A stretch of 24,223 nt of DNA from a virus, in IMG/VR virus record IMGVR_UViG_3300022187_000231, positions 1 to 24,223 of that record; one strand, written 5' to 3'. Position numbers and translations under genes: made by a program. The notes beneath the pieces were generated by a model, which was not told the origin of the DNA, did not search any database, and saw nothing but the letters and a program-made list of their open reading frames with translations. Positions 5,736 through 24,223 of this stretch are shown one piece after another. Numbering within the stretch: position 1 is the stretch's first letter; each line of letters begins with the position of its first letter.

Positions 5736-8324
5736 ATGGTACAATCACTTTCATATTTAGCAGCTAATACTAAGCTTGGAACTGGGGACGATAGCGTTAG
5801 CCTTGTAGCTAGCGGTAACTCTTTTGTCATCTCTGACGGAAGCCAGTCGTCAACAATCGCTGCCGGAACTGATTTAGGTTCTGGAGGTGCTACTGTATAT
5901 GCTAATTCTCAAGCTTTTCCTCTTACAGGACTAAGTGCTGGAGACTTTGCTTTTGCCTCAAACAACAATACTCTATATATGACAAATGGATCTGGTTGGT
6001 ATAAAATTGCTCTTGTTAATCAAGATCCTAGCATCAGCCTCAGTGCAACCTCTGTTACTACAGAACCAGGTTCTAATACAGCAAATGTTACCTATACTAT
6101 TACTGAGCCTGAAGGCACTCCTACAACCATTACAATATCATATGACTTTACAGCTAATGCGAATATTGTTCATGATAGTTCTAACACAAGCCTCTCAATA
6201 ACTAATACTGATTCTAATACGTATACTGGAACCGTTACAGTTACTGTATCTGATGGTGTTAATACTGGCGTAGGAACAATATCTCTTACTAATTCAGTAG
6301 TTATCATAATAGATAATTCAAACTACACTTCACTACTTGTTAAAGCATCTGGTAATGGTGGTACAAATACAAGTATTACTGATTCATCAACTAATGCTCA
6401 CACCGTTTCTGTATATGGTAACACTCAAGCTACTTCGTTCAGTCCGTATCGTGCTAGTGGATATAGTGCTTATATTGACGGGAGTGGTTCTGATTGGTTA
6501 AAAACAGATACACATGCAGACTTTACTTTTGGAACTGGAGATTTTACAGTTGAATGTTGGTATTATCCCATATCAAAAGCTCAGAGCTATGCTCGTATTC
6601 TTCATTTTGGCCCATATTGGCTAAACAACCAAGCGTGGGGAATATTAGATAGACATGATTCATACAGTACCAAAATCACTGTACAAGCATATACCGGAGC
6701 TGTATTAGAGTCTTCAACAACCGTTACTGATGGTGAATGGTATCATATTGCGTTAGAAAGAAGTGGTACCACTATCACTCTGTATATAAATGGTATTGCA
6801 GAAGATACCTATAATATTTCTACAAATAATTTCCCTGATGCTTCATCTACAAGTTATCTGAATATTGGTAATGTAAGTAATGGTCCTAATCTTTCGGAAG
6901 CAGAAGCAAATGGATATGTTAAGGATGTTCGTATTGTAAAGGGAAGCGCTGTATATCAAGGCAACTTTACTCCACCCACTTCTTCATTAACAGCAGTCAC
7001 AAATACAGTATTTCTTGGATTGACTAAGCCATATTTTACAGATGCATCTGGTCAAGGTCATACATTAACTCCTAATGGATCGATCACGCATGAACCAGTT
7101 TCTCCATATGATTATGTAGTCTATTCTGCTTCTACTCATGGTGGTTCAGTATACCTTGACGGGACTGGTGATAGTTTGGGTATTGCTGATGATGCATCGT
7201 TAGAATTAGGAAGTGGTGATTTTACACTAGAAGGTTGGTTCTATGCAACAGCTGCAGGCCCCGCTGATAATGTAATTGTTGCGAAATGTTCTCCTTCATA
7301 TGCTCCTTATTGGGTTTCTTTCTACGGTGGCGCCACAATGCAGTTTTGTTCTTCAAGTACTAATAGTGGTTGGGATATAGCTAATAATGTGCAGTTTGGT
7401 TCAGCTAAGAAAAATAATTGGAATCATTTTGCGGTTAGTAGATCTGGTACTTCAATTCGATTGTTTCTAAATGGGGTTTTGGGTAACACTGTTACTTCTT
7501 CTGCTGCGTTAACTGATCACACTAGTCCGTTTACTGTAGGAGGCCAATATGGTGGGGCTAATCCTTTTACCGGATATGTTTCAGATATACGTTTAGTCAA
7601 AGGTACAGCGGTTTATACTGCAGCTTTTACTCCTCCAACCGAATCATTAACTGCAATTACAAATACATCAGTATTGATAAGCGGAACTGATGCTAAAGTA
7701 TATGATGCGTCACAATCTTCCGGTACATTAACTTTATATGGAAATGCTGCTTCATCAACTACTCAAACAAAAAATGCATCATCATCAGTATATTTTGATG
7801 GTACTGGAGATTGGATACATCTACCTGCATCAGAGCAATTAGAACCTCTAGGTAACGATTTTACATTCGAATGGTGGTGGTATCCTACAACTCTCAGTCA
7901 AAGACAATGGTTTTTCCATTCTGCCACGGATTATTGGTTAGGAGTAGATTTTCAGACTACAGTCGGAAGAGGACTTGGGATGTGGGCCAGCAGTAACGGC
8001 TCTAGTTGGAATTTGCTTCATTGCGATGCTGGTGGTAATGGAATATCAAATACTAATCCAACATTAAATGCTTGGAATCATATCGCATATACTCGAAATG
8101 GAAACACCTTTACACTTTGGCTGAATGGAACATCAATTGTATCTGTTGGTAGTATAACTTCAAGCATTGTTAACAGATCTACAGAATCGAAGGTAATAGG
8201 TTCATGGGCTCAATCAAATCATCAATTACCTGTAGTGGGTTATATTGAAGACTTCAGAATTACTAAGGGTCTTGCACGTTATACAACATCATTTACACCA
8301 CCAACAACAGAATTAGAGGGATAA
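5736..8324 (+). CDS. Triple LamG-domain adhesin
   Basis: The 862-residue protein has an N-terminal virion-type module (about 1-95, with FPLTGLSAGDFAFASNNNTLYMTNGSGWYK), an Ig/cadherin-like beta segment (about 98-190), and three consecutive LamG (concanavalin A-like, Laminin_G_3 type) domains at roughly 197-425, 426-650 and 651-862. Each LamG domain shows the family signature: (Y/V)xDGxGD near its start, a GDFTxExWxY strand, W-x-HxAxxR, TxxLxxNG, and a closing GYxxDxRxxKGxAxY-x-FTPPT. LamG domains bind carbohydrates or proteins at surfaces, so this is probably a tail-associated adhesin for host glycans. Its own promoter lies just upstream and a small structural gene follows after 3 nt. The fold call is strong; the ligand is unknown. 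Confidence 0.82.
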   Translation: MVQSLSYLAANTKLGTGDDSVSLVASGNSFVISDGSQSSTIAAGTDLGSGGATVYANSQAFPLTGLSAGDFAFASNNNTLYMTNGSGWYKIALVNQDPSISLSATSVTTEPGSNTANVTYTITEPEGTPTTITISYDFTANANIVHDSSNTSLSITNTDSNTYTGTVTVTVSDGVNTGVGTISLTNSVVIIIDNSNYTSLLVKASGNGGTNTSITDSSTNAHTVSVYGNTQATSFSPYRASGYSAYIDGSGSDWLKTDTHADFTFGTGDFTVECWYYPISKAQSYARILHFGPYWLNNQAWGILDRHDSYSTKITVQAYTGAVLESSTTVTDGEWYHIALERSGTTITLYINGIAEDTYNISTNNFPDASSTSYLNIGNVSNGPNLSEAEANGYVKDVRIVKGSAVYQGNFTPPTSSLTAVTNTVFLGLTKPYFTDASGQGHTLTPNGSITHEPVSPYDYVVYSASTHGGSVYLDGTGDSLGIADDASLELGSGDFTLEGWFYATAAGPADNVIVAKCSPSYAPYWVSFYGGATMQFCSSSTNSGWDIANNVQFGSAKKNNWNHFAVSRSGTSIRLFLNGVLGNTVTSSAALTDHTSPFTVGGQYGGANPFTGYVSDIRLVKGTAVYTAAFTPPTESLTAITNTSVLISGTDAKVYDASQSSGTLTLYGNAASSTTQTKNASSSVYFDGTGDWIHLPASEQLEPLGNDFTFEWWWYPTTLSQRQWFFHSATDYWLGVDFQTTVGRGLGMWASSNGSSWNLLHCDAGGNGISNTNPTLNAWNHIAYTRNGNTFTLWLNGTSIVSVGSITSSIVNRSTESKVIGSWAQSNHQLPVVGYIEDFRITKGLARYTTSFTPPTTELEG

Positions 8325-8327
8325 AAA

Positions 8328-8648
8328 ATGGCAACAAATAATTTTAAACTAATATCATCAGACTCAGTTAGTGGAATCGCTAACACACTGATCAATACAG
8401 CACCAACGTCTTCGACAATGGTGATACATTCAATATATTTAACAAATATAGGCGCTAGTGAAAGCTTTGCTAACGTACTAGTAGAAGATGTCTCTGCATC
8501 TACAACTACACACGTAGCATATAACGCATCAATTCCTGTAGGAGAAACTCTTATCTTTGATAAGCCCTTAAACCTAGAAACTGGAGATAAGCTATATGTT
8601 AGAGGCACAGATTTAGAAGTAACTGTGAGTGCGTTGGAGATTAGCTAG
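8328..8648 (+). CDS. Small beta-sandwich virion protein
   Basis: This 106-residue product follows the LamG gene after 3 nt, with GAGGG upstream of its ATG. The sequence alternates strands throughout (MVIHSIYLTNIG, ESFANVLVEDVS, GETLIFDKPLNLETGDKLYV, LEVTVSALEIS), consistent with a compact beta sandwich. Similar small proteins are common near fibre genes of marine phages, to my recollection, usually without known function. It could be a head decoration, fibre or baseplate accessory. Its stop (TAG at 8646-8648) overlaps the GTG start of the next gene, which points to coupled translation. Confidence 0.65.
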   Translation: MATNNFKLISSDSVSGIANTLINTAPTSSTMVIHSIYLTNIGASESFANVLVEDVSASTTTHVAYNASIPVGETLIFDKPLNLETGDKLYVRGTDLEVTVSALEIS

Positions 8649-9601
8649 TGAGACAACGTTATCTAGGCGATTCAGTCACAATCATTTCACCAATTGATGT
8701 ATTAACTGATAATACAAACAAACTTTATAACAATGGTGGAACACTATACTTTAACGGCACTGAGGTAGGGGCAGGTGCTGAAGACAATAACGCTTGGGTA
8801 AATTCAAACGACTATGCAACTTATACAACTCTTTCTGGATTAATAGATACAGTACAAGATAATGTTAGTGCAGCTTCAGACGCAGCAGCTAATGATTATA
8901 ATACATATACTACAGTAACAGCTAATACATATGATACATATGTAACTGTTTCTGGATTGATAAATACTGTTAATGCAAATGTTGATGCACTACCAGATTC
9001 AGCAGCTAACGATCACACCACATATACAACACTTTCTGGGCTTATTGACACAGTACAAGACAATGTTACTGCCAACGAAAATAATGCTTGGGTAAATGCA
9101 AATGACTATACAACTTATAATACACTATCTGGACTAATAGACACAGTTCAAGATAATGTTGCTGCTTCTACAGGTGCTTGGACAGAGAGTGGTTCTGATA
9201 TCTATTTTGCTACTGGTGCAGTAACTGTTGGGCCTGGTGCTAGTTATAATCCAGCATCAAATCTCTATGTTTATGGAAATACCTATGTTAGTGGAAATGT
9301 AGAAGTAGGAGACACACTAATTGAGCTATCTTCTATGGCTATTAAAACAAATATAGTACCATTAAGACAACAACTCTCTAAAATTCAATTGCTAAATCCT
9401 GTAGAGTATGATAAAATACAAACTAATAATCATGAACTAGGATTGATTGCAGAAGAAGTTTCTCAAGTATTACCTCACGTTGTAGCAGAAGGTAATACTG
9501 CAATCTCCTATACACGAATTGTTCCTGTATTAATTCAAGCAATGAAAGAACTTAAATCAGAAGTCGATGAATTGAAGAGAAAACTAAATGGCTCAACTTA
9601 A
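8648..9601 (+). CDS. Tail fibre with C-terminal S74 chaperone domain
   Basis: This 317-residue protein starts at a GTG overlapping the upstream stop. Residues about 49-170 carry shaft repeats (TYTTLSGLIDTVQDNV type, and one ANVDALPDSAAND unit) like those of the fibre gene at 1-2186. Residues about 228-317 form a peptidase S74 / intramolecular chaperone domain: Ser228 and Lys233 in SSMAIKTNI, then NPVEYD, GLIAEEVSQVLPHVV, ISYTRIVPVLIQAMKEL and a closing coiled coil. In this family the C-terminal domain drives trimerisation of the beta fibre and cuts itself off just before the Ser. Here the usual Ser-Asp is Ser-Ser, so cleavage competence is uncertain. The 3' end overlaps the next gene by 14 nt. 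Confidence 0.82.
   Translation: MRQRYLGDSVTIISPIDVLTDNTNKLYNNGGTLYFNGTEVGAGAEDNNAWVNSNDYATYTTLSGLIDTVQDNVSAASDAAANDYNTYTTVTANTYDTYVTVSGLINTVNANVDALPDSAANDHTTYTTLSGLIDTVQDNVTANENNAWVNANDYTTYNTLSGLIDTVQDNVAASTGAWTESGSDIYFATGAVTVGPGASYNPASNLYVYGNTYVSGNVEVGDTLIELSSMAIKTNIVPLRQQLSKIQLLNPVEYDKIQTNNHELGLIAEEVSQVLPHVVAEGNTAISYTRIVPVLIQAMKELKSEVDELKRKLNGST
8790..9172 (+). repeat. Degenerate fibre-shaft repeats shared with the first fibre gene
   Basis: Four units of the form (N)DYxTYxTLSGLIDTVQDNV or GLINTVNANV occur here, including one ANVDALPDSAAND segment also found in the 84-bp array at the window start. Copies are diverged at the DNA level, unlike those at 1-377. They probably build the trimeric shaft upstream of the S74 domain. 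Confidence 0.75.
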
Positions 9602-11021
9602 ATCTGGAAGTACTCTAGGCGCAAACTCTATTGTTGACACAACTACTACTAGTATTACCTCTAGTAATTTTAATTTTTATTCACTATTTCCAGCTTCAAT
9701 TATACAAGATGAGACAATAGTGTTTAAAGATGCTAATGATGTTGTTCAATTAGGCACTATTCAAGGTACTCTTTCAGTTTCTTTATCTAAAACGCCTTCA
9801 GCTTCATTAGAAGAAGAAGGTAATGTTATTACATATTCTGCTACAGCTACTCCAGTGCCTTTAGTTCAAGGACGAAGTATTAACTACTATCTAAGTGGTG
9901 ATATTTCTCCATCTGACTTATCTCCTTCTTCAAATACAGGATCCTTTACATTCCCTCCTAGTAGTCCTGGGACAGCTTCTGTTGCATATACCGTAGTAAA
10001 TGACGGCGTTACTGAATCTCCTGAAAGTTTAAGTTTAACACTTACTGATGTATATCCTGCTAATTCTATATCTACTACTATTCAAGATTTAGTTCCTAAA
10101 TATGTAGGAGATACATCAGGCTATATAGTAGGTGGAGTAAATGCTTCATTTAACGGACTTGTGAGAGACATACAAAAGTTTCCTTTTTCTTCAGAGACTT
10201 CAGCTTCTTCTCTCGGTAATATAACTCAATATGCATACCGTTGGATAGGCGGAGCAGGGCCTACTTCAGGTTATATAATTGGAGGACTACACTATCCTAG
10301 TAGCAGCTTTCCAGGAACTAGCAGTATTCCTAATTATCAAGTTAAATTTCCATTTTCTTCAGAAACATTTAGTACAATGCCAGGATGGTTAACCACTCCA
10401 GCTACTTCAACACCAGGAATCTTCGACCATGCTACTCATAATAATGGTTCATATCTATTTGTAACAGGAGGTACAACTTCTCCTGCTCCAACATTTAATC
10501 ATGTTGAAAGAATGCCTTTCAGTTCAGAAGGTTCTTGGGTAGATATAGGAGAGCTTACATATATTTCTCGTAATCATGGGGCACACTCTTCTGCTACTAA
10601 TGGTTATACAGTAGGAGGAAGCGGGAACTTGGTGGATGATGCAATGGTGAAGTTTCCTTTTGCAATCTCAGGATCGTCGTCTACTGATATCGGAGAGCTT
10701 CCTTATAATATGAGTTTTGATGGTAGTGGAATATCTTCCTCAGAGAATGGTTATACAGTAGGTGGAGGCTCACCCCCTTTTCTCTTAAATAGATCTGTAT
10801 ATAAGTTTCCATTTTCATCTGATACTCCTGCTTCTACTCTAGTTAATCAAAATACATATTTTGGATCTACACATTCTAGTCAAACTGATGGCTATTCTTC
10901 AGGACAGCCTGGAGGTACAGCAATAAATAAATTTACATTTTCATCAGATGCTAATTCATCTGATATAGGAGAGCTGAATACTGGTATTTATGGTAGACCT
11001 TCAGCAGCATTTCATACATAA
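9588..11021 (+). CDS. Calx-beta-like plus six kelch-like repeats, fibre protein
   Basis: The 477-residue product begins with MAQLKSGSTLGAN, a short leader shared with two later genes. Residues about 62-155 look like a Calx-beta/cadherin-like sandwich (EEEGNVITYSATA ... TVVNDGVTESPESLSLTL). Residues 178-477 hold six repeats of about 45-60 residues, each opening GY(I/T)xGG and containing a (V/I)xKFPFSS motif followed by DIGEL-like residues. Six such repeats fit a six-bladed, kelch-like beta-propeller, a common ligand-binding fold; this fold is inferred. The gene overlaps the S74 fibre gene by 14 nt and is coupled by TAATG to a second six-repeat gene. A host-contacting tail protein is most likely. 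Confidence 0.72.
   Translation: MAQLKSGSTLGANSIVDTTTTSITSSNFNFYSLFPASIIQDETIVFKDANDVVQLGTIQGTLSVSLSKTPSASLEEEGNVITYSATATPVPLVQGRSINYYLSGDISPSDLSPSSNTGSFTFPPSSPGTASVAYTVVNDGVTESPESLSLTLTDVYPANSISTTIQDLVPKYVGDTSGYIVGGVNASFNGLVRDIQKFPFSSETSASSLGNITQYAYRWIGGAGPTSGYIIGGLHYPSSSFPGTSSIPNYQVKFPFSSETFSTMPGWLTTPATSTPGIFDHATHNNGSYLFVTGGTTSPAPTFNHVERMPFSSEGSWVDIGELTYISRNHGAHSSATNGYTVGGSGNLVDDAMVKFPFAISGSSSTDIGELPYNMSFDGSGISSSENGYTVGGGSPPFLLNRSVYKFPFSSDTPASTLVNQNTYFGSTHSSQTDGYSSGQPGGTAINKFTFSSDANSSDIGELNTGIYGRPSAAFHT
10119..11018 (+). repeat. Six diverged kelch-like coding repeats
   Basis: Six units begin at GY(I/T)xGG-like motifs and carry KFPFSS-like cores. They are more diverged than those in the following gene; unit 2 is enlarged and unit 6 has GYSSGQ in place of GG. 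Confidence 0.75.
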
Positions 11022-12097
11022 TGGCAATATTAAAACCCGACTCAACGAGCAACTCTAAACCACTTGTAGGTTCTACACCGACTATCAATGTTTCTAGCAT
11101 TGAAGGTTCTGCTAATGCTACTGTACGAGCATTATCAAGTGATCCAGACGGTAATCTTTTATTTACTGATATCTCTCCTCTTACTGTTTACAGCTTTTAT
11201 GAGATTATCTTTCAAGGTACAGTGAGCGGTTATACAAGTGGAGGGTATTCTCCAACAGTATCTAGTACATTATCTACAATTGAAAAGTTTCCTTTTAGCT
11301 CAGATACAAATGCTACAAGCGTTGGCGACTTAACACAAGCAAGATCAAGAATGACAGGACAGTCGTCATCGGATAATGGGTACACAAGTGGCGGTTTACC
11401 AGCTCCAACACCTCCGTTTGGCGGCAGCATTATTGAAAAATTTCCATTTAGTTCAGACGCAAATGCGGTAGGTGTTGGTGATTTAACAGTAGATAAATAT
11501 GATATGGCTGGACAATCATCAGATTATAATGGTTATGTTTCTGGTGGTCAAACTCCTTCAATCATCAACACTATTGAAAAATTTCCTTTTAATTCAGATA
11601 CTAACGCAACTGACATTGCTGATTTGACAATAGCAAGATATGGTGGATCTGGTCAATCATCAACTACTCATGGATATACATCAGGAGGGTATTATGATAG
11701 AGATATCATAGATAGGTTTCCTTTTAGTTCAGATGCAAATGCTTCTGATGTAGGAGAGCTAACTTCAATTAAAATTAGAGCGTCTGGTCAATCTTCACGT
11801 ACCCATGGATATTCTTCTGGAGGATATTTTTCTCCAACCAATACTGCAATTAATGTTATAGAAAAATTCTCATTTGCCGCCAGCAGTAATGGAGCTGATG
11901 TGGGGGATTTAACAACAGCAAAATGGAATATGTCTGGGCAGTCAAGTGTTACTAATGGTTATGCAGCTGGAGGTAGAATATCAACTCCAGTTTATACAGC
12001 TATAATCGAAAAGTTCCCATTTGCATCAGATACAAATGCAACAAATATTGGAAGTTTAACTCAAGTTAAAAGCACTGAAGCTGGACACCAAATATAA
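11021..12097 (+). CDS. Six-repeat kelch-like beta-propeller fibre protein
   Basis: The 358-residue protein starts on a TAATG overlap. After a leader (MAILKPDSTSNSKPLVGST) and a short linker, residues 70-358 are six regular repeats of 45-51 residues: GYxSGG, a variable loop, IEKFPFSSDxNATxVGDLT, then xGQSS. A six-bladed closed propeller is the simplest structure for this count. The loops between GG and IEKF vary most in length and sequence, where a binding surface would be expected. The gene is a clear paralogue of its upstream neighbour but lacks the Calx-beta-like module. It is probably a tail-tip adhesin or fibre part; no enzymatic residues stand out. Confidence 0.75.
   Translation: MAILKPDSTSNSKPLVGSTPTINVSSIEGSANATVRALSSDPDGNLLFTDISPLTVYSFYEIIFQGTVSGYTSGGYSPTVSSTLSTIEKFPFSSDTNATSVGDLTQARSRMTGQSSSDNGYTSGGLPAPTPPFGGSIIEKFPFSSDANAVGVGDLTVDKYDMAGQSSDYNGYVSGGQTPSIINTIEKFPFNSDTNATDIADLTIARYGGSGQSSTTHGYTSGGYYDRDIIDRFPFSSDANASDVGELTSIKIRASGQSSRTHGYSSGGYFSPTNTAINVIEKFSFAASSNGADVGDLTTAKWNMSGQSSVTNGYAAGGRISTPVYTAIIEKFPFASDTNATNIGSLTQVKSTEAGHQI
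11228..12094 (+). repeat. Six regular kelch-like coding repeats
   Basis: Units begin at residues 70 onward with GYTSGG, GYTSGG, GYVSGG, GYTSGG, GYSSGG and GYAAGG; five carry FPF(S/N/A)SD and one carries FSFAAS. The DNA copies are diverged, so the array is old or under diversifying selection. Confidence 0.85.
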
Positions 12098-12108
12098 TGC
12101 TAACAACA

Positions 12109-12124
12109 TTTATTAATTAATAAA
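12109..12124. repeat. Perfect 16-bp AT palindrome between genes
   Basis: TTTATTAATTAATAAA is its own reverse complement. It sits in the 41-bp gap 12098-12138 between the propeller gene and the first oxygenase, just before an AAAGG ribosome site. It has no GC stem or U-tract, so a terminator is unlikely. It could be an operator-like site or chance in AT-rich DNA. Confidence 0.3.
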
Positions 12125-12138
12125 CGAAAGGTAAAATA

Positions 12139-12879
12139 ATGACACCACAAGAAAAATTTAAACGAGATAAATATGTACTTTTTGATGATGTAATATCAAA
12201 AGATATGTGCACTTTTCTAACAAACTATATGCACTTACGTAAAGATGCAGGTTATATGACTCCGCCAGTTTCAATGGGAGGAGATGATACTCAATGCCCA
12301 AAGAGTTGGAGTATTTATGGAGATCCAGCTTTTGATACGTTATTATTACAGCTTGCTCAACCGCTATCAAATCTTTTAGGTATGCAACTAATTCCGGCAT
12401 ATACCTATGCACGTATTTATCAGCCTGGTGAAATTCTAGAATGGCATAAAGATCGTCCGTCTTGTGAAATATCAGGTACAATGACGCTTGGCATGTCTAG
12501 TCCAACAGATATCTGGCCTATCTATGTAGGCAGTCCAGACTCTACAAAAGAAGAAAAAGTAGGTAATCCAATTAATATTGGGGTCGGAGAACTTATGATG
12601 TATGAAGGATGTGAAGTACCTCATTGGCGTGATGAATATACAGGCACTTGGCAAGCTCAAGTATTTATTCACTATGTACGTGCTAATGGTCCATATGCTG
12701 CAGAGCATAGATTTGATGGACGTCCAAGTCTAGGTATTTTTAAACACTCTGACGAGTATAAAAAGCAAACAGACAGAATTATTCAATATGCTTTAAACAA
12801 ACCGAAAGAAACTTCTGTTTCAAAAACTGAACAAGTTCAAGCACAAGACTCAATTAAACCTTTTAAATTTGAGGTATAA
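12139..12879 (+). CDS. 2OG-Fe(II) oxygenase, first of two
   Basis: The 246-residue product has the double-stranded beta-helix signature of 2-oxoglutarate/Fe(II) dioxygenases: the iron ligands H103-x-D105 in EWHKDRPS and H162 in EVPHWRD, followed by a WQAQVFIHYV strand. Such enzymes couple decarboxylation of 2-oxoglutarate to hydroxylation of a substrate such as a protein side chain or nucleobase. The canonical Arg/Lys that binds 2-oxoglutarate is not obvious. The C-terminal 40 residues are polar and may be a tail. It is preceded by a 41-bp gap with an AT palindrome and followed at 1 nt by a second, unrelated-looking oxygenase, so the pair is probably co-translated. The substrate is unknown. 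Confidence 0.78.
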   Translation: MTPQEKFKRDKYVLFDDVISKDMCTFLTNYMHLRKDAGYMTPPVSMGGDDTQCPKSWSIYGDPAFDTLLLQLAQPLSNLLGMQLIPAYTYARIYQPGEILEWHKDRPSCEISGTMTLGMSSPTDIWPIYVGSPDSTKEEKVGNPINIGVGELMMYEGCEVPHWRDEYTGTWQAQVFIHYVRANGPYAAEHRFDGRPSLGIFKHSDEYKKQTDRIIQYALNKPKETSVSKTEQVQAQDSIKPFKFEV

Positions 12880-12880
12880 A

Positions 12881-13495
12881 ATGCTATTACTAAATAAAGA
12901 ACTACCACCAACTCCGTCATTTATTGTACATGATAAAAATACTTGTCCTGATGATCCAAAACTATATTTTTCTCCTGAAGAATGTATGTGGATAAGACAG
13001 TGGGCAGAAAAAAGAACTCCACAATTTGCATCAGTTGGTGTAGGAGAACAATCTGAGGTACGTCGTTCAACTAGAGATGTGTATTTATATGGTATGCCTC
13101 GTGATGAAATAACTGATGGGGTATTTAGAAAGATACTATATCAAGTAGACTATGCTAACAAAAATGCCTTTAATTTTGAGTTAACTGGTATTTTACATGA
13201 TCTTCAAGTTCTTAAGTATGATTCAAAAACAGAGCAACATTATGATTGGCATATTGATATTAGCGGAGGAAACTCTTATGGGCGTAAAATCTCTTACAGT
13301 TTACAGCTAAGTGATCCTTCAGAATATGAGGGAGGAACTTTAGAAATTTATGATGGCAATAATCATATTGTGCCTCAAGCGCAAGGTACAGCAGTGATGT
13401 TTCCAAGTTATATGTGTCACAGAGTAGCTCCGGTTACTGCTGGTACTCGTTGGAGTTTAGTAATTTGGATTCAAGGATCATCACATTTTAGGTAG
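12881..13495 (+). CDS. 2OG-Fe(II) oxygenase, PKHD-hydroxylase-like
   Basis: I place the start at ATG 12881, one base after the upstream TAA, with GAGG at 12871-12874, rather than at an in-frame TTG at 12869. The 204-residue protein has H124-x-D126 in HYDWHID, a GGTLEIYDG strand pair, H180 in PSYMCHRV and R190 in AGTRWSLVIWIQG, exactly ten residues after the distal His. This is a complete Fe(II) triad plus 2-oxoglutarate-binding Arg, closest in layout to prolyl-4-hydroxylase-like / PKHD-type enzymes. Related genes occur in marine phages. Two oxygenases side by side amid virion genes suggest modification of a virion or host protein; this is inference. Confidence 0.85.
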   Translation: MLLLNKELPPTPSFIVHDKNTCPDDPKLYFSPEECMWIRQWAEKRTPQFASVGVGEQSEVRRSTRDVYLYGMPRDEITDGVFRKILYQVDYANKNAFNFELTGILHDLQVLKYDSKTEQHYDWHIDISGGNSYGRKISYSLQLSDPSEYEGGTLEIYDGNNHIVPQAQGTAVMFPSYMCHRVAPVTAGTRWSLVIWIQGSSHFR

Positions 13496-17478: not shown

Positions 17479-17859
17479 ATGTCAGAACTTAAAAGAATCC
17501 CAGTAAAATATGTAAGAGATTATATTAAAAAACATTACAGCTACGGTAAGAGTTGTTATATATGTAAATCTACTAGTAATTTAGAGCTTCACCACTTATA
17601 TAGCATTTCTGAACTATGGAACAACTGGGTAGATAAAAGAAATCTAAATATAACAGAATATGAAGAGATAAAAGAACTACGAGTAGAATTTTACGAAGAA
17701 CACTTAGATCTACTCTCTTCTGAAAACCTTTATACACTATGTAAAGCTCATCATGAGAAGTTACATTCTATATATGGTCAAAGATACTCAAATTGGCGAT
17801 CAGAAAAAGTTAAAAATTGGATTGAAGCTCAAAAGAATAAGTTTGGAGAAACTAACTAA
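17479..17859 (+). CDS. HNH endonuclease next to terminase
   Basis: This 126-residue protein has the zinc-bound HNH layout: CYIC (C26, C29), LELHHLY (H38, H39), N83 in ENLYTLC, and C88-x2-H91 with H92 and H96 in CKAHHEKLH. The N-terminal RIPVKYVRDYIKKHY is a basic helix. HNH nucleases encoded beside the large terminase are known packaging partners (HK97 gp74 is the studied case), needed for specific genome cutting; a free-standing homing endonuclease is the alternative. It ends on a TAATG overlap with the portal gene. A consensus -10 element lies one base before the ATG, so its own mRNA may come only from upstream read-through. Confidence 0.88.
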   Translation: MSELKRIPVKYVRDYIKKHYSYGKSCYICKSTSNLELHHLYSISELWNNWVDKRNLNITEYEEIKELRVEFYEEHLDLLSSENLYTLCKAHHEKLHSIYGQRYSNWRSEKVKNWIEAQKNKFGETN

Positions 17860-19160
17860 TGGCAGGCCCTATATCTTGGATTAGAGAAAAACTAACTAGA
17901 GAAAAACTAAATCCAATTCAACCTTATCTACAAAGCCAAGAGCCCTTAATTCAACCTGATAGTAATGTAGATTTTAGAGCTGCTTATGATCAAGTTGAAA
18001 TTATTCATCGCTGTATAGAGATGATTATAAACTCAGCAGTAGGTATACCATTTGCAGTTGAAACAGGTCCAGGTGGAGGACCAGTTAAAAAAGTTAATAA
18101 ACTTTTAAACGAGAGACCTAACCCCTTTGAGGATAAAATAAGATTTTTACGTCGTGGACTTTTTGATTTTTTAATTGACGGAAATGCATTTTTCTATTAT
18201 GATGGTAATGATATATATATTTTACCTGCGAACGATATAGAAATCGAAACTGACGCAAAACGATTTATAAAAGGTTATACATATCTACTAAGCGGTGCAG
18301 GATCTAGTTACGACTCAGGATTTGAACCATTTGCAGGATCATCTACAGGTAGAAACAGAAGCCCTTCTACTGGAGTTAAACAAGAGACTAAAATTTACTT
18401 TGATGCTTCAGAAGTTATTCACGTAAAAGATGACAATGAAGAAAGTATTTTTAGAGGTAAAAGTAGATTAAAAAGTTTAACAGATTTAATTAATCTATAC
18501 TACGCTCTTTTAAAATTCCAAAGACAGTTCTTTAGGAATAATGCAATTCCAGGGGTTGTTTTAACTACTGATAATGTAATGAGTGCAAAAGTAAAAGAAA
18601 GATTACTACAATCTTGGAGATCTAGTTATACTACTATTTTTGAAGGTGCTAGAAACCCTGCAATTTTAGATGGTGGACTAAAAATTGACAAGTTTAGTGA
18701 TATAAATTTTCAAAACTTAGATTTTGAAAACAGTGTTGAAAGATTACAACAAGATATGGCAAAAGCTTTAGGTGTACCATATGTCTTGTTAAAAAGCGGG
18801 AACAACGCGAATATAGCGACTAACCAGGTTTTATTTTATGAACATACAATAATTCCAATTGTACAACAATTTGCTAGTGCGTTCGAACACTTCTTTAACT
18901 CAGTTAAGGTTAGACCAGAATTAAGAAATATACCTGCTTTACAACCAGATTTAAAAACACAAGCACAATATTTTACTTCTTTAGTAAATGCTGGAATTAT
19001 AACTGCGGATGAAGCTAGAGAAAAGCTATACTTCCCTAAGTTAGAAGAAGAAGCTACAGCTAATATTAGAATACCTCAAAATATAGCAGGAAGCGCAATA
19101 AGTCCAGAACTAGGCGGTAGACCTCCTGAAGAAGATAAAACGGAGTTAACAAATGAATGA
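17859..19160 (+). CDS. HK97-type portal protein
   Basis: The 433-residue protein matches the HK97 portal family. It has a crown/wing N-terminus (EIIHRCIEMIINSAVGIPF), the DFLIDGNAFFYY and FDASEVIHVKDDN segments, GKSRLKSLTDLINLYYALLK, and the long stem region LDFENSVERLQQDMAKALGVPYVLL followed by NQVLFYEHTIIPIV. It would form the dodecameric ring at one head vertex through which the terminase pumps DNA and to which the connector binds. The length is typical. A Gly/Ser-rich loop at about 148-170 may be flexible. The gene is coupled by TAATG to the HNH gene, and its last 8 nt overlap the protease-capsid ORF. Confidence 0.93.
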   Translation: MAGPISWIREKLTREKLNPIQPYLQSQEPLIQPDSNVDFRAAYDQVEIIHRCIEMIINSAVGIPFAVETGPGGGPVKKVNKLLNERPNPFEDKIRFLRRGLFDFLIDGNAFFYYDGNDIYILPANDIEIETDAKRFIKGYTYLLSGAGSSYDSGFEPFAGSSTGRNRSPSTGVKQETKIYFDASEVIHVKDDNEESIFRGKSRLKSLTDLINLYYALLKFQRQFFRNNAIPGVVLTTDNVMSAKVKERLLQSWRSSYTTIFEGARNPAILDGGLKIDKFSDINFQNLDFENSVERLQQDMAKALGVPYVLLKSGNNANIATNQVLFYEHTIIPIVQQFASAFEHFFNSVKVRPELRNIPALQPDLKTQAQYFTSLVNAGIITADEAREKLYFPKLEEEATANIRIPQNIAGSAISPELGGRPPEEDKTELTNE

Positions 19161-21912
19161 TAAAAAATTCTTTATAAATAGTGATGATATCGAAATTAAA
19201 AGTAAAGATAGCACCACTAAGAGTAAATTTAAGATTGCAGGATATGCAAATACTAAAGATAAAGACAGGGTTGGCGATATCGTACTTCCAGAAGCATGGG
19301 CAAAAGGAGTAGAGAACTATCGTAAAAATCCTGTATTACTTTATCAGCATGATCATGGTAAACCGATTGGTAGATCAGATGTGGTTAGAGTCGATAAAAA
19401 AGGAATCTTTGTCGAAGCTTCTGTCTCAGATGCGGCAGAAAAACTACACGGTGTACAAACATTAATTAACGATGGAGCACTAAAAAGCTTTAGTGTTGGT
19501 TTTAGAGTTAAAGATGCGGATTTTGATAGAAACTCAGATACTTTCGTAGTTAAAGATCTAGAGTTGTTAGAAATCAGTGTAGTGAGCGTACCTGCCAATC
19601 AAGAGTCTTTATTTAGTATCAGAAAAAGTTTTGAATCTGATGAAAGCTATGAAGAATTCAAAAAACAATTCATATCTGAAAAAACTAATGAGGAGAATGA
19701 AATGACAGAAGAAGCTCAAGTAGAAGAGATTACTGAAGAAGTAATCGAATCTTCAGAAGAGGTTAAAACTTCAGAAGAAGTAGTTGAGAGTATTGAAGAG
19801 AAATCTGAAGCAGTAGTAACTGATGCAGAATCTGAAGAACTAGATACTAAATCATCTGCTCCTGAAGTAGAAACTATTAAAGAAGAGGATGAAGAAGCTA
19901 GTTATGAAGATCCAACTAAACCTATCCCATTCTATAATATGTTAAGTGCTGAGACATCAAAACTTAATAACAACGACTTTGTTAAAATGAACGGGCAAAG
20001 ATATGTAGTGACTAAAATTGCTACAGCCGAAAGCCCATCTTTTATATTTAAAGAGGTTGACATTAACGGTAATTCCAGCGATAATACAATTAAAGTTGAT
20101 GCTGTTAATTTATCTGTGGTCAATACATGGGATCTTAATACTAAGTATGATGTTGTACTAGTAGATCATGTAGATGCTACAAATTATACAGATTCAGACA
20201 GAGAGTCTATTAAACAACAATTCGAAGAATATGTTAAAGCCTCTGAACTAGATCTTTATTCTATGAAGAATAATGAAAAGATTAAAACAAGTGTTGAGTT
20301 ACAAACAACATTAAACAACTTGATCAATCTAAAAAGCATGGAAGCCGGCTCATGGAGTGACACACACTATGGAATGGCTCAAAGATTCACTAAAACTATT
20401 AAAGCTCTAATCAACCTTCCAGAGGAAGAAGATAGAAACTTCGCTTTAAGTTTACACGGTTATCTAACCGAAGATAAGGAGAACACAAAAATGGCAACTC
20501 AAGATATTGGTGATACCATTAATGTAGAAACACAAACCCCTGCGGCTCCTGCTGTTGAAGAAAAAGCAGTCGCTCAGGTTTCAGAGCCAAGAGTAGCTGA
20601 ACTAGTTAAAGAAGCTGGCACAGTTATTGAAAAGCAATCTGAAGAAAAGATTAAGGCTAATGACGAAGATCATGAAAATTCTCGTCTTGCTGAAGAACTT
20701 GCTGAACTTAGAGGTCAGATGAAAGCTTATAAAGAGCAGATTCATTCCTTTACCGAAAGCAAAATGATCTATCAGGAGAACACTCGTAGAAATACTCAGT
20801 TCTCACAGAAAGATCTATCAAATGCATATTTCCTAGCTAAAGCTCTACGTAAGAGCCCAATGGATACAAAAATGGGTATGCGTATGAAAGACGTTGTTGC
20901 TGGTAACTCAGTTGATGCTTTCGAAAACGCCTTCTCAACAAACGTATACGAAGAAATGAGACAGCAGCTTGTTGTAGCTCCTCTTTTCAATCGTATTGAA
21001 GTAAATGCACGTCAATTCTCAGTTCCAGTAGCTGATGAAGATACAGATGATGCAATTGCACAATTCGAGTCAGGTACATATACAACTGATACAAATAGCT
21101 CTGTACCAACAACTAACCAGCATCAGATTAAATCTGTTGAACTTACACCACATAAGTTCATGGTTAAGACTCACATTGCTAAAGACGAAGAAGAAGATAC
21201 AATTCTTCCGCTAGTTGACTTCTTACGTTCAGCTGCTACTCGTCGTCTAGCTCGCTTTACCGATAAGGTTCTACTTCGCGGTACAGGTGCTCTTACTGGG
21301 TTTGATGCTACTGAGTCACTCTCAGCTGGTTCAACTACAGGTGTCGGCGGTGTTGCTTCACCAATTAAAGGTGTTGTCAACCACGCTGGTGCAGTTAGTG
21401 CCCTTAACCTCTATCGTGGTGTTGGCCTAACAGGTGCCTCCGCTAATACTGCTAAAGCTAATGCAGCTACTGTTGCTTCAGCTCGCGGTCTAATGGGTAA
21501 ATACGGACTTGCTCTAGGTGAAAACCTAGTACTTCTAACATCAGTTGAAGGTTATAATGCTTTCGTAACTGAGACTGATTTCCAGACAGTTGACAAGTTC
21601 GGTGCTCAGGCAACATACCTAACAGGTTCACTTGGAGCCATCTATGGTATCCCACTATATATTTCAGAGTTCATGGACTCAGTTTCTGGCACAGCCAACA
21701 ACCGCGTCCTTGCTACAATGATTTATAAGCCTGGATTCCTAATCGGTGAGCGTCGTGCAATGGAAGTTGAAAGTGAATATCTTCCAGAGCGTCAGGTAAC
21801 TGCTATGTATATGTCAACTCGTTATGACATGAAGGCACTTACAACTGTCGCATCTGCAGCACTAAGCTCAACTTATTCTTACGCTGTTAACATCCTAAGT
21901 GGTGCTGAGTAA
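19153..21912 (+). CDS. Prohead protease - scaffold - major capsid fusion
   Basis: One uninterrupted 919-codon ORF holds three modules. Residues 1-183 are a U35/S78-type prohead protease: H66/H68 in LYQHDHGKPIG, S112/S114 in KSFSVGF, and E140 in LLEISVVSVPAN. Residues 184-446 are Glu-rich (184 to about 250), then an unrecognised domain. Residues 447-919 are an HK97-fold major capsid protein, with a helical delta-like region, VVAPLFNRIEV, KFMVKTHIAKDEEE, LLRGTGALTGF and YGIPLYISEFMDS. A good ribosome site and ATG stand at each internal module boundary (19702, 20491), so nested products are likely beside, or instead of, a processed polyprotein. Arg codons change sharply at 20491. A strong terminator follows. 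Confidence 0.92.
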   Translation: MNDKKFFINSDDIEIKSKDSTTKSKFKIAGYANTKDKDRVGDIVLPEAWAKGVENYRKNPVLLYQHDHGKPIGRSDVVRVDKKGIFVEASVSDAAEKLHGVQTLINDGALKSFSVGFRVKDADFDRNSDTFVVKDLELLEISVVSVPANQESLFSIRKSFESDESYEEFKKQFISEKTNEENEMTEEAQVEEITEEVIESSEEVKTSEEVVESIEEKSEAVVTDAESEELDTKSSAPEVETIKEEDEEASYEDPTKPIPFYNMLSAETSKLNNNDFVKMNGQRYVVTKIATAESPSFIFKEVDINGNSSDNTIKVDAVNLSVVNTWDLNTKYDVVLVDHVDATNYTDSDRESIKQQFEEYVKASELDLYSMKNNEKIKTSVELQTTLNNLINLKSMEAGSWSDTHYGMAQRFTKTIKALINLPEEEDRNFALSLHGYLTEDKENTKMATQDIGDTINVETQTPAAPAVEEKAVAQVSEPRVAELVKEAGTVIEKQSEEKIKANDEDHENSRLAEELAELRGQMKAYKEQIHSFTESKMIYQENTRRNTQFSQKDLSNAYFLAKALRKSPMDTKMGMRMKDVVAGNSVDAFENAFSTNVYEEMRQQLVVAPLFNRIEVNARQFSVPVADEDTDDAIAQFESGTYTTDTNSSVPTTNQHQIKSVELTPHKFMVKTHIAKDEEEDTILPLVDFLRSAATRRLARFTDKVLLRGTGALTGFDATESLSAGSTTGVGGVASPIKGVVNHAGAVSALNLYRGVGLTGASANTAKANAATVASARGLMGKYGLALGENLVLLTSVEGYNAFVTETDFQTVDKFGAQATYLTGSLGAIYGIPLYISEFMDSVSGTANNRVLATMIYKPGFLIGERRAMEVESEYLPERQVTAMYMSTRYDMKALTTVASAALSSTYSYAVNILSGAE
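19690..19704 (+). promoter_or_regulatory. Internal in-frame ribosome site and start, scaffold module
   Basis: GAGGAG at 19690-19695 stands 6 nt before ATG 19702, in frame with the fusion ORF at Met184. It lies exactly where the protease module ends and the Glu-rich region begins. Use of this start would give a scaffold-capsid product of 736 residues, analogous in principle to lambda Nu3 starting inside the protease gene. Confidence 0.55.
20476..20493 (+). promoter_or_regulatory. Internal in-frame ribosome site and start, capsid module
   Basis: AAGGAG at 20476-20481 stands 9 nt before ATG 20491, in frame with the fusion ORF at Met447. Initiation here would yield a 473-residue capsid precursor of normal HK97-family size with an N-terminal delta-like region. 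The Arg codon change begins downstream of this start, supporting separate, heavier translation of this module. Confidence 0.65.
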
Positions 21913-21933
21913 GAATACTTTTTAACCTAAGTA

Positions 21934-21976
21934 AAAAGGGGATGTGGGCCTCCAGCCCCATCCCCTTTTATTTTTT
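21934..21976 (+). terminator. Strong intrinsic terminator after the capsid gene
   Basis: An 11-bp perfect stem (AAAAGGGGATG at 21934-21944 with its complement at 21959-21969) continues, after a bulged T, into a GGGC/GCCC stem with a CTCCA loop. It is followed by a T-rich tract to 21976. It lies 22 bp after the capsid stop and immediately before the connector's GGAG ribosome site. Confidence 0.92.
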
Positions 21977-21986
21977 GGAGAATTCG

Positions 21987-23252
21987 ATGCTTGTAACGCT
22001 TCTTGAAATAAAAGAGTTTTTAAAAATTAAGTTAGATAATGATTCCGAAGACGATAGATTAAATTCTATTAATACTTATGTATCGTCTCTCGTAGAGTCT
22101 TATTGTGGTAGGGTTTTTTCTTCTAATACCTATACTGAATATTTTGATGGAGGAATATCCTCCGTCTTTATTAAAAATCCACCAATTATTAGTGTTAATG
22201 AAGTATCTCAGTATCTTGGAGAGAAATATTCAGCGCTCGGAGGACCAGGTCCTTCTGGAGAGCAAATTGAATTAGAAGGTACAAGTCATACAGTTTCTAC
22301 TATTGGAAATGCAAAAACAACTAAAAGAATTAAAAAATATGGAACATCTAGTCTAACTTTAGATGGGTCTGGTGATTATTTAAGTATTGGGTCTTCAACT
22401 GATTTTGACTTTGATTCAGAGCCTTTTACTATTGAACTTTATACTAGACCAAAAGCTTTAACTGATCATTGTTTGGTATCTAGAGTAGATGACTCTTCTA
22501 ACTATTGGGAACTATCTTATGACGAAACTAACGGTATATATTTTAAAACAGTAGAGGATGGAACTGAAACCACATATATAGAAGGTGCTACCTTAACAGC
22601 CAATACATTTACACATATTGCAGTCGTAAGAAGTGATTCTGAGTATAAAATATTTAAAGATGGATCTCAGGTTGGAGATACAGTCACATCTTCTAATGCA
22701 GTACCAACACTAAGTTCTTCTGTTGAAATTGGTAGAATTAATTTAACATCTAACAAAAATTATAAAGGTAATTTAGATGAACTAAGAGTTTCTTGGATAG
22801 ATAGATATTCCGCTAACTTTACTACTTTAACAAATCCTTTTAGTTCTGATGAAGATACTAAACTGTTATTACATTTTAACGAAGGACAAAACAAAACAGA
22901 AATTATAGACTTCTCTAGAAAAGTAAATGAGTATATGTGGTACGCTGAAACTGGAGAGATAAATTTTGATGCTGGTAGAGGCGGAGGAACTCCTCGTTTA
23001 GGATTCTTTAATCCTAGACAGTTTCAAAACTTTGCTAACGGTGTAAAAGTTAATTATACTGGAGGCTATGTAAGTGTACCTGCAGATTTAAAACTAGCTG
23101 CACTAGAAATGGTTAAAGTACTTTACAAAGGTAGATCAGGTGTTTCTTCTGCTAGATTAGCTGGTGATGATTCTGTAGCACATGAGCTTTCTATGGATGG
23201 ATTTCCTCCTCAAATAAGACGAGTGTTAAATCTTTATAGGTTGCCTATATAA
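21987..23252 (+). CDS. Head-tail connector (gp6-like) with inserted LamG domain
   Basis: I place the start at ATG 21987 after GGAG (21977-21980); an upstream in-frame ATG at 21942 lies inside the terminator hairpin. In the 421-residue product, residues 1-82 match the phage gp6-like connector N-terminus (LLEIKEFLKIKLD, a SYCGRVF segment, NPPIISVNEVSQYLG). Residues about 85-310 form a LamG domain (LTLDGSGDYLSIG, FTIELYTRP, FTHIAVVR, KIFKDGSQVG, GNLDELRVSW, LLLHFNEG). Residues 311-421 return to the connector C-terminus (NGVKVNYTGGYVSVPADLKL, then AALEMVKVLYKGR). The connector ring sits under the portal and joins head to tail; the insert would be displayed at the neck. The fusion is in frame throughout. 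Confidence 0.87.
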   Translation: MLVTLLEIKEFLKIKLDNDSEDDRLNSINTYVSSLVESYCGRVFSSNTYTEYFDGGISSVFIKNPPIISVNEVSQYLGEKYSALGGPGPSGEQIELEGTSHTVSTIGNAKTTKRIKKYGTSSLTLDGSGDYLSIGSSTDFDFDSEPFTIELYTRPKALTDHCLVSRVDDSSNYWELSYDETNGIYFKTVEDGTETTYIEGATLTANTFTHIAVVRSDSEYKIFKDGSQVGDTVTSSNAVPTLSSSVEIGRINLTSNKNYKGNLDELRVSWIDRYSANFTTLTNPFSSDEDTKLLLHFNEGQNKTEIIDFSRKVNEYMWYAETGEINFDAGRGGGTPRLGFFNPRQFQNFANGVKVNYTGGYVSVPADLKLAALEMVKVLYKGRSGVSSARLAGDDSVAHELSMDGFPPQIRRVLNLYRLPI

Positions 23253-24223
23253 TGATTTCTGTTTTAATCAACATTTCAGATAAAGATTTTGAAAAAGGCT
23301 TAAATGAAGCAAAAAGATTAAAAAGAGATCCTAATGCAGCTTTGGGTTATTTAGGTGAACAAATAGTTAAAGGGGTTTTTGAAGGTAAAGGGGAGGCCAC
23401 TACCGCATCTGGTAAAGCAGATATTCAAGGTGTTCCACCTAGTGTTGTAGCTTCATTAATTAAAAAGGCAGAACCTGGAGTAGTTGAAGCAAGTATAGTA
23501 TCTGAAATTCAGTCTACTATGGGGGTTTCAGATCTTGACATTGAAGCCAAGTTTACATTAGGTCAGTTAGCACCAGGTAAGTCTTATGAAGCAGCTGGAC
23601 AACTAAAATTAACTCAAGCCACTCCTACTGTAGCTGCTAGTGTAGCAAATGACCCAGACTACATTTATAGACAAAAATTACTGATTACAGAATTAATTAG
23701 AATAGGATTAGGTAATACTGCTTTGATAACTTCTGTAGAAAACAACTTCAAAGAGTTACAAGAATTATCAAAAGTAACTCAAAAAGATGTAAAGGCTTTT
23801 CAAGATATGTTTATATCGGCAGTAGGAGGAGTAGAGGGACTAAATAATTTATTTGAGAGTGTGTTGAAAAATAATTGGAATGAGTTTATGAACGGTCCCT
23901 TTGGGATAAAACTTAAAAACAAAGCTAGAAATTTAACTGCACAAGTAAACGTAAGCGCACCTCAAGGTAAAACTTTAAGATTTTTTCAAACATTTGTAGG
24001 ATTGAAGTTTAATAATAACGACATAGGATTCTCTTATTATGATAAGAACTCAGCTGGGATTAAAACTTATAAGTTCTTTTTTACAAGTGGTTTTGAAAGA
24101 AAATTATTAGCTGAAACTAGAAAAAAATTAGAACAAAATGCTATTTTATCTGTTGATACAAAAAATATAAGAAATCTTGGCTTTAAAGCAGGAGCAAAAA
24201 CAGAACTAGGAGCATTATTAGGC
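23252..24223 (+). CDS. Probable neck or tail-completion protein (3' truncated)
   Basis: The ATG at 23252 overlaps the connector stop (TAATG) and the frame stays open to the window end, giving 324 visible residues. The product begins MISVLINISDKDFEKGLNEA, then is mixed helix and strand with charged stretches, a FKELQELSKVTQKDVKAFQD helix and Lys-rich segments near the visible end. I recognise no family. In HK97-like phages the genes after the connector encode head-closure, neck or tail-terminator proteins, which are usually much shorter than this, so it may be a larger neck or internal protein. Confidence 0.7.
   Translation, partial: MISVLINISDKDFEKGLNEAKRLKRDPNAALGYLGEQIVKGVFEGKGEATTASGKADIQGVPPSVVASLIKKAEPGVVEASIVSEIQSTMGVSDLDIEAKFTLGQLAPGKSYEAAGQLKLTQATPTVAASVANDPDYIYRQKLLITELIRIGLGNTALITSVENNFKELQELSKVTQKDVKAFQDMFISAVGGVEGLNNLFESVLKNNWNEFMNGPFGIKLKNKARNLTAQVNVSAPQGKTLRFFQTFVGLKFNNNDIGFSYYDKNSAGIKTYKFFFTSGFERKLLAETRKKLEQNAILSVDTKNIRNLGFKAGAKTELGALLG

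Follow-up and report, generated by a model that had tools for sequence, protein, structure and literature searches.

A putative T5-type head-tail adaptor with an in-frame, apparently circularly permuted LamG domain in an uncultured virus

The ORF at positions 21987 to 23252 of the window (the whole 24,223-nucleotide stretch analyzed here) encodes, judging from its sequence, a head-tail adaptor of the T5 p144 type that carries one in-frame LamG domain, between residues ~84 and ~313. Our main reading, to which we give a probability of about 0.75, is that this is the adaptor of a T5-related virion module (T5 p144 / DT57C HCP type), with the LamG domain placed in a loop of the attachment domain. 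The features concerned are the following.

17859..19160, + strand: portal protein (PF04860)
19153..21912, + strand: prohead protease fused to the major capsid protein, immediately 5′ of the adaptor (PF04586, PF05065)
21933..21976, + strand: terminator-like hairpin and T-run in the gap between the capsid and adaptor genes (limits set by eye)
21987..23252, + strand: predicted head-tail adaptor, T5 p144 / PHROG 442 type, with LamG inserted, 421 aa
21987..22238, + strand: adaptor N-part, residues 1-84 (PF05135; PHROG 442 profile 87-163; secondary structure)
22239..22283, + strand: linker, residues 85-99, GGPGPSGEQIELEGT (alignment; lower pLDDT there)
22284..22919, + strand: LamG domain, residues 100-311, predicted circular permutant (PF13385, pLDDT, strand order)
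22848..22919, + strand: putative relocated LamG strand, residues 288-311, DEDTKLLLHFNEGQNKTEIIDFSR (strand-profile scores; model strand 291-295)
22923..23249, + strand: adaptor C-part, residues 313-421 (PF24163; PHROG 442 profile 171-263; T5-family proteins)
23252..24223, + strand: 5′ part of the following gene, which runs off the window

The 421-aa ORF is translated without stops on the + strand. A longer ATG is found at 21942, but it sits within the terminator-like hairpin, which makes 21987 the better start. Searches of Pfam matched PF05135 to residues 4 to 48 (E 4.1e-6, above the curated cut-off), PF13385 to residues 126 to 268 (E 3.3e-19; 69.9 bits against a gathering score of 27.6) and PF24163, a head completion protein family, to residues 350 to 418 (E 3.6e-6), the latter passing narrowly with 27.6 bits against a cut-off of 27. 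The two flanks were submitted to PHROG as separate proteins, and both matched PHROG 442 (head-tail adaptor), residues 1 to 91 alone at profile positions 87 to 163 (E 6.1e-9) and residues 302 to 421 alone at positions 171 to 263 (E 6.2e-12). Thus, some 7 profile positions separate the flanks, and the insert fills that gap. Four further carriers of the fusion also match PHROG 442. An earlier note on this DNA had described a connector-like protein interrupted by an in-frame LamG insert, and these matches bear it out for both ends and for the middle part. The location that it gave for the insert holds, with limits revised from 85-310 to ~85-312 and a folded LamG domain at ~100-311; it was also right about a connector, but the nearest relative is T5 p144 rather than HK97 gp6.

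The C-flank matched 423 phage records, and the 50 listed, which include T5, align with 70% of its length at 31-32% identity. Its matches to head completion proteins of solved structure (9ilp, 8hqo) were weak (E 0.0034-0.0067). The N-flank alone had no match among 50,697 phage records, and no cultured-phage record had a single place covering 80% of the 421-aa protein. Cellular genomes scanned with an 18-row adaptor alignment yielded 87 matching stretches and 0 confirmed relatives.

Flank searches returned insert-less relatives, and four of them used as queries led to 383 loci. LamG was absent from all 80 of the loci examined, whose open frames of 188-227 aa each match both flank profiles. Because the queries were themselves insert-less, this count proves that the empty form exists, as had been proposed, not how large its share is. 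A GxTYxxL-type strand is followed after 1-2 residues by the next strand (EYEDYV, KFTDWV) in 25 insert-less proteins; the corresponding GEKYSAL and VNEYMWY of the window adaptor are 228 residues apart. Against a profile of insert-less proteins, the joined flanks gave one stretch of 93.8 bits, and the match of the full adaptor was split by the insert into pieces scoring 32.1 and 48.4 bits. This profile has 4 rows, from loci found via these same flanks, and the independent tests are those with PHROG and Pfam.

The window adaptor resembles T5 p144 and DT57C HCP in both flanks, in gene order, in the terminator-like element upstream and in the predicted order of helices and strands, whereas T5 p144 is an insert-less protein of 170 aa and the window adaptor has 421 aa with LamG. 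The T5 order is portal, T5.151, protease, capsid, annotated terminator, 170-aa adaptor, 255-aa protein, 161-aa protein and major tail protein. By length and place, the 255- and 161-aa proteins correspond to p143 and p142, and T5.148 (GenBank), p144 (PMC11313276) and gp148 (DT57C paper) are one protein. The putative terminator annotated in T5 is at the same place as the hairpin of the window; the stretch scanned has 2 terminator-like sites against a shuffle mean of 0.5. The gene after the adaptor is complete (11266-12696, 476 aa) in L305, a 47.6-kb contig with an adaptor identical to that of the window. The C-part alone of this 476-aa protein matches T5 p143, weakly (18.1 bits against a Pfam cut-off of 27), and the genes that follow encode a tail terminator (PF23818), a major tail protein (PHROG 3575) and a chaperone. 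The adaptor gene is positioned between the major capsid gene and the tail terminator and major tail genes. The protein after the adaptor has 471 and 498 aa in two insert-less relatives; its size thus does not depend on LamG.

Among the neighbors tested, the T5-type order is kept in three diverged fusion carriers, L329 (portal, protease-capsid, tail terminator, major tail protein), L336 (portal, tail terminator) and L169 (tail terminator), and in the insert-less L081 (protease-capsid, tail terminator). Among the matches listed for the window proteins, the best have 34.7-34.8% identity for the portal and 39-41.5% for the terminase; we take these to be mostly large siphophages, T5-like. The protease-capsid fusion at 19153-21912 has 919 aa with a long middle; its counterpart in L081 has 638 aa, and the two are separate genes in T5. 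Some carriers have an extra ORF of 206-238 aa in the gap between the capsid and adaptor genes (L329 9039-9755, L336 9295-9915, L334 9036-9749), for which there was no PHROG match at E 0.01.

The adaptor was modeled by AlphaFold2 with an 84-row alignment, A10, which gave a pLDDT of 84.0 and a pTM of 0.75, with ~95 over most of residues 101-250; an earlier run with 11 rows (pLDDT 56.6) was set aside. A10 comprises 34 rows from 17 insert-less loci cut to their N- and C-parts, 23 full adaptors and 27 LamG rows, the last two sets picked by eye for diversity from the available loci. The insert-less loci were cut in two because the trial alignments A8 (76 rows) and A9 (87 rows) had wrongly placed pieces of them within the insert, and ~30 residues around the site are without insert-less support in A10. 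In the model, the insert is confidently predicted to fold as LamG, a ConA-like beta-sandwich whose best solved match is AbnA (Z 19.1, rmsd 2.4, 174 aligned), followed by PAPP-A, PTX3 and others. The AbnA alignment covers residues 97-283 and excludes the terminal strand; the PAPP-A and most PTX3 alignments run from ~112-120 to 308-309 and include it. As to the adaptor part, the N-part has helices at 5-12 and 19-40 followed by the initial strands of what is presumably the portal-attachment domain, and the C-part has the rest of the strands and helices at 366-381 and 408-417, an order that agrees with a helix bundle plus a beta attachment domain. Confidence was low in two stretches of the adaptor body, 332-344 and 383-401. 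LamG fills the structure matches listed, and the T5 adaptor is absent among them. A "Gp14 neck protein" named in one BFVD row did not appear in the 50 kb of phage metaG-MbCM1 whose annotation was inspected, and was rejected.

T5 p144 and DT57C HCP are reported to form dodecamers whose attachment domain faces outward (PMC11313276, PMC10713586), so that the 12-mer ring already supposed for this protein is reported for its solved relatives. In the alignment with T5, the insert interrupts the portal-attachment domain at roughly T5 residues 76-86. This alignment is ambiguous around the site, and the place of the insert in the attachment domain therefore rests on the flanking strands. If the protein assembles as in T5, 12 adaptor copies would encircle the outlet of the portal, their attachment domains outward, and 12 LamG domains would surround the neck, below the head. 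By this analogy, the virion neck is probably encircled by twelve LamG domains.

What these domains would do there is less certain. By analogy with LamG domains on tail and baseplate proteins, which such a role would parallel, they may serve in outward accessory binding of glycans, host-surface or particle-bound, a role to which we give nearly even odds. A somewhat less likely alternative is that LamG, at the periphery, braces the neck against the capsid or keeps some other part of the neck in place. The adaptor of the marine roseophage R4C has a peripheral Ig-like domain that its authors call structural and not adsorptive (PMC10276861), and the authors of the phage 812 study hypothesize reinforcement of the neck by neck decoration proteins. 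In addition, the insert lies, by alignment, within the domain that is reported to bind the portal in T5, and each of the 41 complete relatives has it. The rates of change argue against bracing. The dN of LamG exceeded that of either adaptor part in 9/9 chosen pairs, and in L013-L016 the insert has 34-36% identity and the flanks 57-63%, unlike a fixed interface. Moreover, the best structural matches of LamG include carbohydrate-binding modules, though the fold alone is no proof of function. In 8 of the 9 pairs dN/dS of LamG was 0.028-0.199 (dS was saturated in the remaining pair and high in most of the others), and LamG is thus under purifying selection. Together with the highest dN, these low ratios indicate a domain that is retained while evolving more rapidly than the ring. 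The rapid change of the insert is also compatible with relaxed constraint. We lean slightly toward a glycan-binding decoration over neck reinforcement because of this faster evolution and of the LamG domains found elsewhere on virions.

Few parts of a tailed virion are as constrained as its adaptor. A domain of ~210 residues kept across a diverse group implies that the neck ring tolerates, and selection retains, a large accessory domain. The fusion would represent a naturally occurring display site, probably 12-fold, close to the head. It also provides a test case for whether lectin-type domains remote from the tail tip aid adsorption or hold the neck together. Adaptors with an accessory domain are a known kind, and the LamG-bearing version is not a new category. 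The dodecameric adaptor of R4C is reported to bear an accessory beta-sandwich as well (PMC10276861), but of another arrangement: there the domain is N-terminal and Ig-like, belongs to another adaptor type and is reported to contact the capsid, whereas here LamG is internal. The window adaptor lacks the R4C hallmark, an N-terminal Ig-like domain contacting the capsid protein. The accessible portions of PMC10713586, PMC10276861, PMC11313276, PMC12886913 and PMC9413028 mention no LamG-adaptor fusion. None was found in the titles and abstract openings searched, within open PubMed Central text, and one may be in print elsewhere.

The insert departs from ordinary LamG domains in its strand order. 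Ordinary phage LamG proteins have a motif like TKLLLHFDGTDGSTTFTDSS before the core (e.g., L182, L185, L194, L203 and RHEph19). This order was not found in the adaptor LamG, whose TKLLLHFDG-type strand comes after the core and falls outside the PF13385 profile. In 22/22 adaptor rows, a profile made from adaptors gave this strand 19.9-65.9 bits downstream of the core, against no more than 0.1 upstream. On these sequence grounds, the adaptor LamG is most simply described as a circular permutant, in which the strand that ordinarily precedes the core follows it. That the terminal strand is instead an unrelated segment merely resembling a LamG first strand is very improbable. An independent origin is conceivable, since PTX3 and PAPP-A bear a C-end strand at that position. 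However, a profile trained on 17 ordinary N-terminal strands only, whose maximum in 6,440 shuffled flanks was 10.1, finds the strand in all 13 distinct adaptor rows (the 22 rows minus duplicates), with 14.9-25.8 bits downstream and at most 1.4 upstream. The strand is also kept in 18/18 rows of the adaptor alignment A5, and at this place the diverged relative L336 reads DSNTSLLLHFNGAKDATTTYDSST, which is nearly the ordinary motif. The C-end strands of PTX3 and PAPP-A make the order of the permuted LamG one that is unusual among phage LamGs and precedented for the fold. If the permutation lies in the loop that follows the ordinary first strand, the two ends of the insert would be next to each other, and with adjoining ends LamG could exit from and re-enter one adaptor loop, leaving the ring unbroken. 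The permuted ends thus suggest how a neck ring accommodates a large domain. The earlier note overlooked the permutation, which makes the fusion more unusual than it had said, as well as its recurrence in cyanophage gp7.

The permuted order was found in 7/7 cyanophage proteins (first LamG of each) and in 78 of the 80 loci (L225-L304) kept from 544 found with the cyanophage gp7 LamG, loci that are "gp7-type" by LamG similarity and not by the remainder of the protein; one of the other two is cut short and one scored 3.3 bits. The Kyanoviridae gp7-type LamGs (L219-L222, L224, L225-L304) share this order with the adaptor. In L221 and L222, the second LamG-like match lacks the strand both upstream and downstream. 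Scored with the ordinary-strand profile, the 67 distinct rows of the gp7 group comprised 63 with the strand downstream only, 2 with neither, 1 with a short flank and 1 with the strand upstream only; the name prefix of this last row points to L223, a Rhizobium protein other than gp7. Among the 52 rows of other LamGs, 15 had the strand upstream only, 7 on both sides, 2 downstream only (L207, L208) and 16 on neither, and 12 had short flanks, many of the high upstream scores being those of the 17 training sequences. The adaptor-trained profile scored at least 10 bits upstream in L182, L184, L185, L191, L194, L198, L203 and L223. L207 (1204-6486) encodes a 1761-aa non-adaptor protein with a permuted LamG that groups weakly with the gp7 type (92/87).

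In the LamG tree, the adaptors form a clade (100/99, starred) separate from that of the gp7 type (100/97, starred). A single permutation origin for adaptors, gp7-type and L207 (40/76 rows) had a p-AU of 0.153, which neither establishes nor rejects it. The baseplate LamG of the Kyanoviridae gp7 type (P-SSM4 gp7, S-MS29, S-RIM2) is like that of the adaptor in belonging to a virion protein and in its permuted order, and unlike it in being part of a very large myovirus baseplate protein and in its separate clade. Ordinary phage LamGs (Rhizobium phage RHEph19 L223 and probably the window protein at 5736-8324) share the LamG profile and the motif, but there the first strand precedes the core and the proteins are of tail or fiber type. 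We tentatively suggest, at somewhat less than even odds, that the permuted LamG is a reusable insertion cassette for surface loops of indispensable virion parts, and that in the neck twelve such lectin-type domains would be displayed right below the head. Its targets would be the T5-type neck adaptor ring and the T4-type cyanophage baseplate gp7.

The other LamG protein of the window, at 5736-8324, has 862 aa and three LamG domains, of which only two match the adaptor insert, with 22-28% identity. All three fall outside the adaptor LamG clade. Two of the domains scored 10.1 and 6.4 bits for an upstream strand, the best of the 6,440 shuffles being 10.1, and the first, which sits in the tandem array, also scored 6.0 bits downstream; with such weak scores, the order in this protein is probably the ordinary one. 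Given the low identity, the position in the tree and the seemingly ordinary order, a recent move of LamG from this protein to the adaptor is not supported.

The fusion is found well beyond the window. N-flank, insert and C-flank follow in this order and in one frame in 41 of 42 relatives, from contigs of 41 metagenome samples; in the remaining one, L335, the contig ends inside the insert. The 42 contigs were hand-listed from several searches, and the insert-less L339 (~192 residues), L040, L041, L042, L062, L063 and L064 were excluded. The protein sequences of 32 of the 42 are distinct. L004, L005 and L011, with adaptors identical to that of the window, are probably the same phage, and some carriers have 37-50% identity to the window adaptor. 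Although the window is one single uncultured virus record, an assembly or binning chimera, for which we see practically no chance and which the earlier note had named as a possible ground for refutation, is ruled out by this one-frame architecture in other contigs, including such diverged sequences. The best BFVD match, UniProt A0A218MK94, a 446-aa "Putative structural protein" of an uncultured virus with 37% identity over 438 columns and TM 0.70/0.67 to the adaptor, probably carries the same LamG-adaptor fusion.

Several other genes of the window have distinctive products. Two adjacent proteins at 9588-12097 contain many KFPFSSDTNATDVGDLT-type repeats; the first had no PHROG or Pfam match, and the second matched DUF4907 only, with no single stretch passing. 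The gene at 8648-9601 encodes a tail fiber-type protein with a C-terminal Peptidase_S74 chaperone domain (PF13884). A 2OG-Fe(II) oxygenase (PF13640) is encoded amid the tail genes at 12869-13495, and the product of the adjoining gene at 12139-12879, which had no Pfam match at E 0.01, is similar to it by eye.
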